The notes below the pieces were generated by a model, which saw only the letters and a list, made by a program, of their open reading frames with translations, ran no database searches and had not been told where the DNA came from. Positions 45,061 to 50,407 of a DNA stretch of 64,000 nt are shown here, in pieces. Source of the DNA: Cyanobacterium aponinum PCC 10605. Lineage in GTDB: Bacteria > Cyanobacteriota > Cyanobacteriia > Cyanobacteriales > Cyanobacteriaceae. The position numbers were made by a program, and so were the translations under genes. Position 1 is the first letter of the stretch, and each line of letters opens with the position of its first letter. The stretch is taken from the NCBI RefSeq assembly GCF_000317675.1, contig NC_019776.1:2666001-2730000 (forward strand). Direction: 5' to 3'.

Positions 45061-45990
45061 TTAATTTCTTTTTTTTTGTTGTTCAAGTAACTTTTTCTTT
45101 TTCCCGAATTTAAACAGATTTGCCAAAAATTTTCGACCGCCAAAACTCAATTTTTTACTTAAACGACTAACTCCCGTGACAACTTCTCCCTCGGAAGGTT
45201 GAGATAATTTTTCCTCTAGTAACTCTTTTAATTTTGTACTGGTTAAAGGACGATTTAAAGTACCTTTTTCCGCCAAAGAAATCGATCCTGTTTCTTCTGA
45301 GACTACAATGCAAATACAATTATCAACTCTTTCCGTGATTCCCATTGCCGCACGATGACGAGTTCCTAATTGACGAGAAGCACTACGATCTGATAATGGT
45401 AATATTACCCCTGCGGAAACCACTTCATTTCCTCTGACAAATACTGCGCCATCATGGAGAAGGCTTTTTGTTTGAAAGATAGTTTGTAATAGTTCTTTAC
45501 TGACAATAGCGTTTAACTGTACCCCCGGATTGACAAAAATTCTTTCTTCAAGAGTATTAAATGTTTCTACAATAATTAATGCTCCAACCCTATTCTGAGA
45601 AAGGTCTTTGACTGCTTCTACCATTTCATCAATGGCACTATCTTCTTTTGGTAGTGAAGAATTAGAAGAAGAAAAATCAAATTGCCATCTGCCTATTTGT
45701 TCCAAAAAACGGCGGAAATCGGACTGGAATACTAATGCCAGTGACAACGAGCATATTAAAATTAGTCTTTCTAAGAAAAAGCTAAATAACTTTAACTGAA
45801 AGATGCGATCGCTCACATAAAAAATGATAAAAAGGAAAAATAATCCCCGAATCATCCGTTGTGCACGACGTTCTCTAATTAAAACTGAAATATAGTAAAA
45901 AGAGAAAACTGCAAAACCTAAATCGAGAAATTGACGGAAAAAAACAATAAAAGAAGATAAATTGTCAGGAAAACCCGACCCAAACATCAA
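45061..45990 (-). CDS. cdaA: Diadenylate cyclase CdaA
   Basis: Membrane-bound enzyme that makes c-di-AMP from two ATP. Three N-terminal membrane segments (about 13-95) precede the DAC domain with the active-site motifs DGAVFVRG (180-187) and GTRHRAA (209-215). The C-terminal 60 residues are lysine-rich. Length 309, slightly longer than typical CdaA. c-di-AMP restrains potassium uptake in many bacteria, which fits the kdp locus in the same window. No glmM or cdaR neighbour is present. Confidence 0.93.
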   Translation of the reverse strand: MMFGSGFPDNLSSFIVFFRQFLDLGFAVFSFYYISVLIRERRAQRMIRGLFFLFIIFYVSDRIFQLKLFSFFLERLILICSLSLALVFQSDFRRFLEQIGRWQFDFSSSNSSLPKEDSAIDEMVEAVKDLSQNRVGALIIVETFNTLEERIFVNPGVQLNAIVSKELLQTIFQTKSLLHDGAVFVRGNEVVSAGVILPLSDRSASRQLGTRHRAAMGITERVDNCICIVVSEETGSISLAEKGTLNRPLTSTKLKELLEEKLSQPSEGEVVTGVSRLSKKLSFGGRKFLANLFKFGKKKKLLEQQKKRN

Positions 45991-46075: not shown

Positions 46076-47581
46076 TTAGAGATAATTCTCTGTTGGGCAA
46101 AAAGATAGTTCACATATTCTTTGACGAATTTCTGCAAGGCTATGGCTTTTGATTAGTTTTCCATTCAAAAATACCGTATCCAATACCCCTTGTTTTTCTT
46201 GTGCTTCTGTTTGTTCTTCGTATAACACAAATCTATCCCCCTCTTGCTCAACTCTTAGTAATCCTTTTGCCGATTTTTTCACCCCATTATCAGTTTTTGG
46301 GTTCTTAAAAATATTACGGCGTTGATGGTTGACTACTCCGCTAGTGGCTTTGACGGCAAAACCGAAGTTATCACGGGTTACATACTGATAAGTATAAGAG
46401 CCGATGCCAAATACTACGTTTCCTGATGCAAATCCTTTTTCTTCTAATTTAGATAATATTTGTGAAGCGCGATCAAGAGTAATAGAATCTCCGTAGATAA
46501 GTCCAATATGAGAATCAAGCATTTTATAACCTTGAGGGGTCATTGTACCGCCAAAAATTTCCCACAGACATTGTATAGCCCCTTTATTTTCCGGGGTGTA
46601 GGGGAGTGCTTTTTCATCCCCACAAATTATTTTAACAGGATCGCCACTATCAGGACGTAAAACAACTTTGCCATCTCTATTTAAAATTTTTTCTTTCAAG
46701 ATAGCAGTATATTCTGTTACCACCTTCCAAAAATCCCATGTATCCGAAACAATGGAAATAATTCCACTGGGGTATAAATCTTCAATTAAACGACGAAATG
46801 TCTCTAATTCTCCATCTTGTAAACCCATTGCCATGACTGAATGTTCCGTTGCAGGAACAGAAACACCTACTATTTCTTTAGTTACATCAGCATGATAATA
46901 ATTTTCTAAAAGATCGATCGCAAGTACCGTATCTGTGCCATAAAATGAGGTAAGATGAGCCGAACCACTAATGATTCCATCTTGAATGCCAGATAAACCC
47001 CTAAAAGAAAAATCATGACATTGCAAAGGAACAAAATCTAGGGATGTACCTGTTTTTAAAGCATATCTTGTCAGCAGTTTCTTATATTGAAAAGCAGTAG
47101 TTGCCGAAGTAATTGGTTTCCAAAGATAAGTTGACATAACTGATTCAATATAGTTGGTTAACCAGAAAAAATCAGGATGAGTATTAACCACTGTTAGTAA
47201 GGGGATACCAATATCAACTTTACTTCCTTCAGGTAAGGCTTTAATTCTTAGGGGTAAATAACCCAAATCGTGTAAGGCTTCAATATGATTAGTTGGAATT
47301 GCACCCACACCAAGGGAATTATCCATGCGTCTTTTATAAGCTGAGATTACTTTTTGCTTGTCTTGCTTAAAGAAATTTTCATTCCAACAATCGATAAGAT
47401 AGTCTTGAATAAAATACTGTAACCCGAAAAAAATAACACTGACATCATCAGAATCTAAAACTTTAGCTAAACGTCCACTACGAGGGGTAAAGTTAGCATA
47501 GACTTCCGTTGTACCTTGAGGATACTGACGACGATGATCGGTTTTATAAAAATCAATGGCGTGAAGAGGATTTATATTCAT
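46076..47581 (-). CDS. nadV: Nicotinamide phosphoribosyltransferase
   Basis: Type II phosphoribosyltransferase joining nicotinamide and PRPP to NMN (NAMPT/NadV). Diagnostic segments: DFYKTDHRRQYPQGTTEVYANFTPRSGR at the start; HDFSFRGLSG; the phosphohistidine motif VSVPATEHSVM (His, about 231); SDTWDFWKVV; RPDSGDPVKI; and GIGSYTYQYVTRDNFGFAVKAT. Full length at 501 residues. A PRPP-synthetase-like gene lies upstream in the same direction (143 bp away), supplying the phosphoribosyl donor. Confidence 0.94.
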   Translation of the reverse strand: MNINPLHAIDFYKTDHRRQYPQGTTEVYANFTPRSGRLAKVLDSDDVSVIFFGLQYFIQDYLIDCWNENFFKQDKQKVISAYKRRMDNSLGVGAIPTNHIEALHDLGYLPLRIKALPEGSKVDIGIPLLTVVNTHPDFFWLTNYIESVMSTYLWKPITSATTAFQYKKLLTRYALKTGTSLDFVPLQCHDFSFRGLSGIQDGIISGSAHLTSFYGTDTVLAIDLLENYYHADVTKEIVGVSVPATEHSVMAMGLQDGELETFRRLIEDLYPSGIISIVSDTWDFWKVVTEYTAILKEKILNRDGKVVLRPDSGDPVKIICGDEKALPYTPENKGAIQCLWEIFGGTMTPQGYKMLDSHIGLIYGDSITLDRASQILSKLEEKGFASGNVVFGIGSYTYQYVTRDNFGFAVKATSGVVNHQRRNIFKNPKTDNGVKKSAKGLLRVEQEGDRFVLYEEQTEAQEKQGVLDTVFLNGKLIKSHSLAEIRQRICELSFCPTENYL

Positions 47582-47668
47582 GGCTTTTACTCCTTTTAAT
47601 GATTCAAACTTTTTTCTAAATTCTTTAACCTCATACCCATTAACAATTAGTAATTAATAATTAAAAAC

Positions 47669-47722
47669 ACCTGAAACCTGACACCTGCCTCAATTAAATA
47701 TTCTTGTTATCAAGCTGAGGTT
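47669..47722. repeat. MITE-like terminus and heptamers between prs-like gene and nadV
   Basis: ACCTGAA/ACCTGAC heptamers followed by AATATTCTTGTTATCAAGCTGAGGTT, a diverged MITE right end, stopping 2 bp before the stop codon of the prs-like gene. No left end recognised. Confidence 0.5.
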
Positions 47723-47724
47723 TT

Positions 47725-48558
47725 TTATGATGGCTGAGAGTGCCTGTCATGAGACGATATAACTGTTATAAAATCTTGATTTTCTTCTGTTATGGGTAAA
47801 AAAGAGTGATAGCAATAGATATGATCGAAATAGGGATTTAAAGCCTGTAAGCCTTTAGAAAAAATACCGTGGGTGATATATAAATAAATTGTTTCTGCTT
47901 GTTTTTCTCGTAATAATTTACCCAATTCAATGAAAGTTCTACCTCCATCACAAATATCGTCCACTATTAAGACTTTCCTCCCTTTAACCTCATCATGAAA
48001 AGTGGTGTCAGTTATTTTTCCTGTTTTTGAGTCACGAATTTTACTTGCACAGAAAACATCTCTTAATCCTAAACGTTGTGCCACTGTCAAAACTTTTTTC
48101 TCTGCCCCCGCATCGGGAGCAACCAACGCCCAATTATCTTCAATTAAGATATTTTTTAAAACACTATCAAAAATAATATCTGCTTGGGTTTTGACTTGAC
48201 AGTTATCTAATAGGGCAGGGGTTACATCAGAATGGGGATCAATAACTAAGATGCGATCGCACCTGAGACTATTAATTAAATTTGCCATTACCTTAACACT
48301 GAGCGCCTCTCCCTGATTACAAACTCGATCCTGTCTAGCATAGGGAAAATAGGGAATAGTTAAATGAATTTTGACACCCAAAGAAAAACGATGAATCGCA
48401 TCAACAGATAATAATAAAGCCATAATATCCTCTGCTTTATACAACCATGCCTCTATCACCGTTATGGGTTTAATCATTTCGGGGGAAATCCTGACGTGAG
48501 ACTCTCCTGCAGGAAAAACGAAGGAAAAAATCTGCTCATCATTGATAAAAATAGGCAT
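47725..48558 (-). CDS. prs: Ribose-phosphate pyrophosphokinase-like protein (short)
   Basis: A 277-residue PRPP-synthetase homologue, shorter than the usual 310-330 residues. The ATP site segment YFPYARQDR (about 84-92) and the flag-like DPHSDVTPALL are present. The PRPP loop reads VLIVDDICDGGRTF instead of the housekeeping VDDMIDTAGT form. This divergence suggests a dedicated paralogue rather than the cell's main Prs. It is upstream of nadV on the same strand. Similar pairs occur in phages and bacteria for nicotinamide-based NAD synthesis. Confidence 0.88.
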   Translation of the reverse strand: MPIFINDEQIFSFVFPAGESHVRISPEMIKPITVIEAWLYKAEDIMALLLSVDAIHRFSLGVKIHLTIPYFPYARQDRVCNQGEALSVKVMANLINSLRCDRILVIDPHSDVTPALLDNCQVKTQADIIFDSVLKNILIEDNWALVAPDAGAEKKVLTVAQRLGLRDVFCASKIRDSKTGKITDTTFHDEVKGRKVLIVDDICDGGRTFIELGKLLREKQAETIYLYITHGIFSKGLQALNPYFDHIYCYHSFLPITEENQDFITVISSHDRHSQPS

Positions 48559-48671
48559 TTTTTGCTCCTCTCTTTAAATGGCTTTAAGCCAATTAATTTA
48601 ATGATGGCACAGAGACAATAATATTGACAAGAGTATAAATGAACTGAAAACCTAGAAATATCTCAATTATT

Positions 48672-49306
48672 AACTGACGTTACGCACTTATTGATGTGTT
48701 AAGTTAAGGGAGGTTTCAGGTTTCAGGTTTCAGGTTTCAGGAAATAATAAAAATGATTGAACTAAAAAGTTATCGAGATTTAACGGTTTGGCAAAAATCA
48801 ATGGATTTGGTAGTAATATGTTATCTATCAATTAACTTCTCAATTTCCCAAAACAGAAATTTATGGTTTAAGTAGTCAAATACAAAGAGCCGCAGTTTCA
48901 ATTCCTGCCAACATCGCAGAAGGAAAAGGGAGAAATCATTTGGGTGATTATATTCGTCATCTTTCTATGGCAAATGGCTCACTCAAAGAATTAGAAACTC
49001 ATTTGATGATTGTAGGACGATTAGGCTATCTTAACCTGAGTTCGGGATAAATTTTCATCTATGAATGATGGAGAAAAAAAGGCAAAAGGCAAGAGGCAAG
49101 AGGCGAACCCCCCTTTATCCCCCCTCGAGAGGGGGGAGGGCAAAGGAAAAATTAAGAATTAGGAATTAAAAACCCCGAACACTCATTATTTGTTACTCAT
49201 TACTTTCTCTCAACACCTGCAACCTGCAACCTGAAACCTGACACCTGATACCTGACACCTGATACCTCAAAACAACAACTAATTATCTTTTTGCGTAACA
49301 TCAGTT
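48672..49306 (+). mobile_element. TIR-flanked four-helix-bundle mobile unit, copy 2
   Basis: A 635-bp copy of 22762-23558 with identical outer limits: AACTGACGTTACGCA at the left and TGCGTAACATCAGTT at the right (14 of 15 positions inverted match). Relative to copy 1 I see two substitutions, a 4-bp TATC duplication and a 166-bp deletion between two CCTGACACCT repeats (junction at 49237-49246). It contains the left part of the same MITE at the same site (from 49033), so the duplication happened after MITE insertion. Confidence 0.87.
48753..49032 (+). pseudogene. Four-helix-bundle gene, copy 2, frameshifted and 3'-deleted
   Basis: Begins MIELKSYRDLTVWQKSMDL like copy 1, but a 4-bp TATC duplication at about 48824-48827 shifts the frame after VVICYL and brings a stop within about 20 codons. 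The 3' end of the gene, beyond the MITE, has been deleted. Clearly non-functional. Confidence 0.9.
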
Positions 49307-49408
49307 CTTAATTCTTAATCCCCCCCTGAAGGCATTTACCGTCATTTCAGGGTATGGCTATAATTTAAAAGGAATTTTATTTATCTCATGGATTAAAAAA
49401 TTTAATTA

Positions 49409-50407
49409 ATGCAAACTGCAATTATCGAACAATTACCCAGACAAGAGCAAGAAATTACTTTAACTCCTTTACCTTATCAACGTCCGCTTCTAATGATTGG
49501 TCATGGTACAAAAGATCCTCATGGTAAACAAATCTTTCTCGAATTTGTAGAAACTTATCAAAAATTAGACACATCTCGTCCTGTCATTCCTTGTTTTTTA
49601 GAATTAACTGAACCCAATATTATGACAGGAGTTGACTATTGTGTAGAGCAAGGATACACAGATATATCTGCTTTACCGATATTGCTTTTTGCCGCTCGTC
49701 ATAATAAATTTGATGTTACAAATGAACTCGATCGCACCCGTCTTAAATATCCTCAACTAACTTTCCACTATGGCAGACATTTTGGTATAAACCCCAGTAT
49801 TATCAATTTGTGGCAAGAGCGTTTAAATCAATTAGACTCAAAAGAATATAACCCTCATCAAATTACCAGAGAAGATACGGTTTTACTATTTGTGGGTAGA
49901 GGCTCAAGTGATCCAGATGCCAACGGAGACGTTTATAAATTAGCCCGTATTTTGTGGGAAGGAAGTGGCTACAAAACTGTAGAAACCTGTTTTATTGGCA
50001 TTACTCACCCTCGTTTGGAAGAAGGTTTCCGTCGTGCCTTACTCTATCAACCGAAGCGTATTATTGTTTTACCCTACTTTCTTTTTATGGGTGCATTGAT
50101 GAAAAAAATATTTACTATTACACAAGAGCATCAAACAACTTATCCTGAAATAGAAATTAAATGCTTACCAGAAATGGGTATTCAACCAGAATTATTGCAA
50201 TTGGTGAGAGAAAGAGAAATAGAAACCCAATTAGGAGAAGTAAAGATGAATTGTGAAATGTGCAAATTCCGTCTCAATGCTTTACAAAATAATGATCATC
50301 ACCATCACCACCATGATCATTCCCATGGGCATCATCACCATCATCATGATAACGATCCCTTAATAGATCCGACTGCTTATCATGAACGTATTTGGCAAAC
50401 CCCTTAA
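49409..50407 (+). CDS. cbiX: Sirohydrochlorin chelatase, long CbiX/SirB with His tail
   Basis: Class II chelatase inserting cobalt or iron into sirohydrochlorin. Two CbiX-like halves are visible ([17 protein letters not shown] at about 28-44 and [20 protein letters not shown] at about 161-180). The C-terminal extension has an MNCEMC motif (MxCxxC, reported to hold an Fe-S centre in long CbiX proteins) and two His-rich stretches around 295-313. These probably bind or store metal. The choice between sirohaem and cobalamin cannot be made from sequence. Confidence 0.9.

Follow-up and report, generated by a model that had tools for sequence, protein, structure and literature searches.

What is a gene for a short Prs-like protein doing beside a gene for a NAMPT-like protein in the chromosome of Cyanobacterium aponinum PCC 10605: simple nicotinamide salvage, or the rebuilding of NAD after its breakdown? 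The pair lies in a stretch of 64,000 nucleotides (NC_019776.1, positions 2,666,001 to 2,730,000), the whole of which is called the window here and supplies the numbering. A first-pass annotation had described a Prs paralogue of 277 amino acids, with the loop DDICDGGRT, ahead of a full-length NAMPT-like gene, and had left both answers open, the second as a repair system like the NARP1 systems of phages. Both genes are intact where it had placed them, and the pair is probably a chromosomal NARP1-type operon for NAD reconstitution, inducible by ADP-ribose, that serves the cell and is not a phage counter-defence. The sequence shows the family membership of both proteins, their clamp and loop signatures, a genetic link to the regulator NrtR and a set of shared operator-like sites. 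The NrtR link, which lay beyond the view of the first-pass annotation, is the more informative part of the result. The genes and the residues that bear on their identity are as follows:

47725..48558, minus strand: Adps-like gene, predicted ADP-ribose pyrophosphokinase of the Prs family, 277 amino acids
47935..47961, minus strand: loop DDICDGGRT, Adps codons 200-208, where housekeeping Prs has DDMIDTAGT
46076..47581, minus strand: Namat-like gene, predicted nicotinamide ADP-ribose transferase of the NAMPT family, 501 amino acids
47471..47473, minus strand: clamp-loop Arg37, Namat codon 37, aligned with Arg40 of SPbetaL1 Namat
46370..46402, minus strand: clamp helix motif GSYTYQYVTRD, Namat codons 394-404

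The Adps-like gene comes first and the Namat-like gene lies downstream of it, with 143 bases between them. Their Pfam domains are a phosphoribosyl pyrophosphokinase and NAPRTase/NAMPT_N, and the top profile families are phage ones, phrog_619 for the Prs-like protein (292 bits) and phrog_448 for the NAMPT-like protein (654 bits), matches far beyond chance. The genome (G000, completeness 99.99%) contains only one NAMPT-like gene. The first-pass annotation had proposed looking for a second, housekeeping prs, and such a gene was found apart from the pair (G000:C1:23076-23732); it has the loop DDMIDTAGTL and its product is 31% identical to the Prs-like protein in the search.

The Prs-like protein is predicted to be an Adps, pyrophosphorylating ADP-ribose rather than ribose-5-phosphate. 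When 142 sequences of the Adps class were aligned with 15 housekeeping Prs, the RxDR motif, His109 and Asp149 were kept in all or nearly all, and the ribose-5-phosphate loop DDMIDT[AG]GTL had changed to mostly DD[IL]CDGGxTF in the Adps class. The loop of a Felixounavirus Adps, DDICDGGRTF, is identical to that of the window protein, and a Felixounavirus phage is reportedly among those used in the NARP1 work. We infer that the loop marks specificity, a marker with no published definition. A single branch (100) sets off the five Prs rows in a 55-row tree, and the Adps-like protein stands apart from them. It falls far under the cut-offs of the NCBIfam PRPP (phosphoribosyl pyrophosphate) synthetase equivalogs, with for example 84 of 518 bits, and passes only the broad subfamily TIGR01251. 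The marks of an ordinary PRPP synthetase, namely the DDMIDT[AG]GT loop and an equivalog score, are absent, and those of an Adps are present: a Prs fold, conserved ATP-side residues, an altered 5'-phosphate loop and an adjoining Namat gene. The fold was seen in an AlphaFold model built from 48 sequences (mean predicted local distance difference test score 93.7), for which the best Z against 6nfe was 24.6, with a root mean square deviation of 2.7 over 261 residues; a modelled Prs fold does not by itself tell the substrate.

The NAMPT-like protein is predicted to be a Namat, which would use pyrophosphorylated ADP-ribose (ADPR-PP) and nicotinamide to form NAD+. Comparison with Namat, which had also been proposed at the outset, indicates that the published substrate-selecting residues of the SPbetaL1 enzyme are present: Y396 and Y400 correspond to its F392 and Y396, and Arg37 stands in the context TPRSGR where Arg40 stands in TPRTSR. 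The protein's match to SPbetaL1 Namat (9w5x) scores 556 bits, compared with 247 bits for the highest-scoring human NAMPT entry. In a 110-row tree, made by a quick method with no bootstrap, the protein lies inside the Namat side, from which canonical NAMPT is split off with an SH-aLRT of 100. That tree also places the pair among loci of Pseudomonadota, Bdellovibrionota and Verrucomicrobiota that are chromosomal and linked to NrtR. The GG[AG]LLQ-type helix of canonical NAMPT/NadV is missing and the protein is outside the NAMPT clade; it also scores above the cut-off of the nicotinate phosphoribosyltransferase family NF006629 (592 bits against 405). The repair option of the first-pass annotation is supported, both proteins falling with Adps and Namat, and its salvage option is disfavoured. 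The annotation had named a position among ordinary PRPP synthetases and NadV as grounds for refuting the repair option, and the trees gave the opposite, setting the two proteins off from the housekeeping Prs and from NAMPT of the canonical kind. The nadV-prs genes of vibriophage KVP40, which it had offered as a parallel, were dropped as a model for the pair: that nadV belongs to the canonical kind (GGGLLQQLDRD), and annotation shows no prs within 6 kb of it.

The clamp and the Adps gene tend to occur together. Of 180 fetched homologues, 149 have both clamp aromatics, and the locus includes Adps for 141 of these; 26 lack both aromatics, and none of their loci includes Adps; the remaining five are intermediate, two of them with Adps. 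Leaving out 11 near-identical rows changes these figures to 130 of 138, 0 of 26 and 2 of 5, respectively. Among the eight clamp-positive loci without Adps, L051, L079 and L107 start at, or no more than 2 bases from, the end of the available DNA.

A separate group is formed by NadV-like proteins of Pasteurellaceae (L087-L089, L091-L098, L100, L102, L103, L108 and L111) and Abiotrophia (L083), which are 45-50% identical to Namat, those of Pasteurellaceae being 45-48% identical to the window protein. Their helix motifs read GAQTYQRNTRD, GSLTYQHNTRD, GSRTYQSNTRD, GSRTYQTHTRD and GSRSYQSMTRD. Since these loci have neither the clamp-aromatic pair nor an Adps gene, the proteins may be Namat relatives that use PRPP, those of Pasteurellaceae either reverted or never specialised.

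The link to NrtR emerges from a survey of 80 bacterial loci, all from one scan, with flanks of 6 kb, and 80 viral loci with flanks of 3 kb. Adps and Namat occur together in 56 of the bacterial and 78 of the viral loci, and NrtR accompanies them in 41 of the 56 and in 0 of the 78; limiting both sets to a matched 3 kb gives 38 of 54 and 0 of 78. The 41 NrtR-linked loci span six phyla, chiefly Bacteroidota (19) and Pseudomonadota (15), and the bacterial loci with the two genes but no NrtR are mostly from Actinomycetota (9 of 15). Within the family to which the window belongs, a close NrtR (75-100% identical) is found in all six pair-bearing genomes against one of the nine others, and in the sister genus it directly follows Namat in all four pair-bearing genomes. 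Three sister-genus proteins were scanned and have Nudix (NUDIX) and NrtR winged-helix (PF21906) domains above cut-off; the copy in G000 (G000:C1:1655155-1655904) is 75% identical to one of them. Against the NCBIfam equivalog NF050029 the NrtR of the sister genus reaches 278-283 bits, below the cut-off of 400. The Nudix box, RKLEEKTGV, by our own reading lacks two residues of REUXEEXGU and resembles the mycobacterial NrtR box that is quoted as inactive in the accessible part of that literature.

Two further observations concern NrtR-type genes elsewhere. Under the title 'Acinetobacter phage MD-2021a', the record CAKLQF020000015.1 (L199) has Adps, Namat and NrtR on a contig that seems bacterial from its genes for iron transport and efflux; its NrtR is annotated as an NMNAT/ADP-ribose pyrophosphatase, even though its domains are Nudix and NrtR winged-helix and no others. 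In G185, a genome with no pair, a second NrtR-type gene (L235:5694-6951), more distant than the first, stands next to a gene that we take to be NadD-like; it has relatives in three pair-bearing genomes (G391, G393 and G143).

Upstream of the Adps-like gene lie a promoter and two candidate operators:

48601..48630, minus strand: putative sigma70-type promoter TTGTCA-N18-CATCAT, a sequence pattern that reads TTGACA-N18-CATTAT in the sister genus
48602..48620, minus strand: predicted NrtR operator 1, TATTGTC-TCTGT-GCCATCA, 21.1 bits, rank 1 in the window
48576..48594, minus strand: predicted NrtR operator 2, AATTGGC-TTAAA-GCCATTT, 17.6 bits, rank 2, 26 bases downstream

Operator 1 spans the -35 and -10 elements and the space between them, and the Adps promoter is kept in all six pair-bearing genomes though most upstream genes differ. 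The NrtR-linked promoters of non-cyanobacterial loci contain a 7-5-7 palindrome, TATTGGC-N5-GCCAATA, and the operator model that was applied to the window was trained on 21 sites, all from such loci. Its third-best score in the window is 13.1 bits, and in the corresponding stretches of the other five pair-bearing genomes the two top matches are likewise in the Adps promoter, 25-26 bases apart. Site 1 and the pairing are remarkable; site 2 alone is not, because the highest chance score in 30 Markov windows was 18.6. The seed of this operator model, TGNC-N5-GNCA, picked by eye after the Geminocystis and non-cyanobacterial promoters had already been inspected, is found in 15 of 25 NrtR-linked loci with Adps first, in 3 of the 15 bacterial loci that lack NrtR and in 1 of 78 viral loci. 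The pattern CTTGWCAWTATWAYTGTCTC fits the six promoters by construction and has no other zero-mismatch site in the 15 genomes of the family. One site in G000 with two mismatches lies upstream of unrelated genes. A looser operator pattern, allowed two mismatches, gives 40 matches in G000 against 19 for the reversed control, and the matches mostly exceed the control in genomes without the pair as well. A palindrome over the -35 element, GACATTATTACTGTC, had also been considered as the operator and was dropped, being explained by that element together with operator 1; the sites common to other phyla are the 7-5-7 palindromes.

Cleavage of NAD+ yields nicotinamide and ADP-ribose. In the mechanism proposed for the pair, Adps would use ATP to pyrophosphorylate ADP-ribose at its free 1-OH, and Namat would couple the resulting ADPR-PP to nicotinamide to give NAD+ in one step, with no need for a nicotinamide mononucleotide (NMN) adenylyltransferase. 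NrtR, sitting on the two palindromes over the Adps promoter, would repress the pair until a build-up of ADP-ribose freed it and allowed Adps and Namat to be made, such that NAD+ breakdown would switch on its own repair. The role in the window's family would be the recycling of the cell's nicotinamide and ADP-ribose. We infer the substrate use, the binding of NrtR in this strain, ADP-ribose as the inducer and the physiological role from the comparisons given here.

The enzymes themselves belong to a known kind, since NARP1 has been published from phages and, in one active example, from a bacterium, Paenibacillus foliorum. The phage systems (SPbetaL1 and relatives; PMC12774641) share with the window pair the enzyme families, gene order, adenine-clamp residues and Adps-type loop, whereas the window pair is chromosomal and tied to NrtR and operator-like sites. 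The P. foliorum system, active in vitro and in Escherichia coli, is also a chromosomal Adps-Namat pair; no regulator is reported for it in that part of the paper, which states that the physiological role of bacterial NARP1 needs further work, in contrast to the NrtR link and cyanobacterial host seen here (PMC12774641). ADP-ribose frees NrtR from DNA in other bacteria, and in those regulons, as is proposed for the window's pair, a Nudix and winged-helix repressor released by ADP-ribose is associated with a palindrome near NAD genes (PMC6800001, PMC12735969, as far as their accessible text goes). The predicted target differs, being here the Adps-Namat pair, and the palindrome TATTGGC-N5-GCCAATA is unlike the NrtR motifs that PMC6800001 quotes for mycobacteria and streptococci. 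What appears to be new, in that it was not found in print, is the NrtR control and the cyanobacterial setting: a literature search, outside which lay the original NARP1 paper, Tesson 2024, Rodionov 2008 and Huang 2009, did not find NARP1 together with cyanobacteria or NrtR together with NARP1, nor Geminocystis with NAD and salvage. A preprint on the evolution of PRPS makes no mention of Adps, NARP or phages. Rodionov 2008 and Huang 2009 reportedly described the NrtR regulons of NAD metabolism. These older NrtR papers, or the 2024 NARP1 papers, may well note the neighbourhood of NrtR under the names nadV and prs.

The pair is rare among the cyanobacteria sampled. A NAMPT-family gene was found in 11 of 386 sampled genomes, the window-type pair in three, all within the window's family, and a canonical NAMPT, 34-38% identical to the window protein, in eight. 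Both pair genes occur in the same six of 15 genomes of the family. A metagenome-assembled genome titled Geminocystis sp. GBBB08 is among the relatives that carry the pair. The pair looks like the sole nicotinamide recycling route in the family genomes, barring an unrecognised enzyme, because the 15 genomes gave no match to the Isochorismatase (nicotinamidase) family, for which the same search was positive in 12 of 14 control genomes, and no full NMNAT-Nudix, only two weak Nudix-only matches. Two loci from metagenome-assembled genomes titled Melainabacteria and Cyanobacteria SZAS-4 (L086 and L090) have Adps downstream of Namat, no NrtR and a tree branch separate from that of the window.

Of the other explanations, the pair could be the self-protection or recovery part of an NAD-depleting host defence in the same genome. 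The chemistry fits, and P. foliorum NARP1 relieved SPARSA toxicity in E. coli according to the accessible text of PMC12774641, but neither a TIR_2 nor a SIR2_2 protein was found in the window's genome and each occurs in only one of the six pair-bearing genomes (G143), in a search of which SEFIR, DarT and other NADase families were not part; this explanation is unlikely. Ordinary salvage, in which a Prs paralogue would supply PRPP to a canonical NAMPT and the resulting NMN would pass to an adenylyltransferase, is the reading that the NCBIfam and Pfam names suggest (ribose-phosphate diphosphokinase, nicotinate/nicotinamide phosphoribosyltransferase), and Namat enzymes do retain some PRPP activity in vitro (PMC12774641, accessible part). 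It is quite improbable nonetheless, as the clamp residues, the Adps loop and the trees all point away from it, the genome already has a housekeeping prs, the family has no full NMNAT-Nudix, and canonical cyanobacterial NAMPT genes lie beside an NMNAT-Nudix gene in seven of eight loci and beside an Adps/Prs-like gene in none. That NMNAT-Nudix and NAMPT salvage of other cyanobacteria and KVP40-like phages also recycles nicotinamide, in two steps via NMN, and unlike the window pair has no clamp and no Adps. Phage-derived cargo, a prophage or satellite remnant guarding a virus against NAD-depleting host defences, is highly improbable: NARP1 was described in phages, viral homologues are up to 71% identical and the pair's neighbourhoods differ within the family, but the pair groups in the tree with chromosomal NrtR-linked loci, none of the 78 viral loci has NrtR and the neighbours in the window, among them ruvA, gmk, cdaA, CbiX-type and panB-like genes, are chromosomal. 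A prophage or defence island at this place was discarded in view of the neighbours and the tree; the only PADLOC matches, two weak ones to the toxins PsyrT (6e-06) and ShosT (2e-04), fall on their phosphoribosyltransferase loop and are taken as shared fold.

Several points weigh against the pair being an NrtR-controlled repair operon. In the window's own genus nrtR is not linked to the pair, and the operator model found no operator-like site upstream of that unlinked gene. The operator seed is absent from all 15 NrtR-linked loci of other gene order, one motif does not cover all NrtR-linked loci, and no usable set of further NrtR targets across the genomes came out of the looser pattern. The association of clamp and Adps is thinner once corrected for kinship, resting on few independent changes: there are five independent pairs, the clamp differs in one of them, and significance is unattainable. 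Fisher p-values take no account of kinship. Given PRPP in vitro, SPbetaL1 Namat can form NMN about half as fast as human NAMPT does (PMC12774641, accessible part), which leaves some room for PRPP-based salvage, and the TIR_2 and SIR2_2 proteins of G143 count on the same side.

For an ADP-ribose-inducible repair operon, the NrtR link would offer a testable answer on the role of bacterial NARP1, in that the substrate of the pathway would be its inducer. Some bacterial genes annotated as prs and nadV may be misnamed, and the clamp helix, the DDICDGG loop and an NrtR operator are marks by which they might be sorted. A wider idea, offered tentatively though it might well be right, is that NARP1 is in origin a bacterial operon for NAD repair, inducible by ADP-ribose, and the sole nicotinamide recycling route in Geminocystis relatives, that phages carry its enzymes without the repressor, and that the Pasteurellaceae NadV are clampless, Adps-less relatives of Namat.

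The surroundings of the pair vary between genomes of the family, and a functional tie to the downstream DAC gene (45061-45990) was dropped, a different gene standing at that place in the sister genome G109. The long intergenic region upstream of the pair (48558-49409) contains short repeats in tandem, of the type CCTGAAA / CAGGTNTCAGG, and similar tracts occur between Adps and Namat at about 47665-47690.

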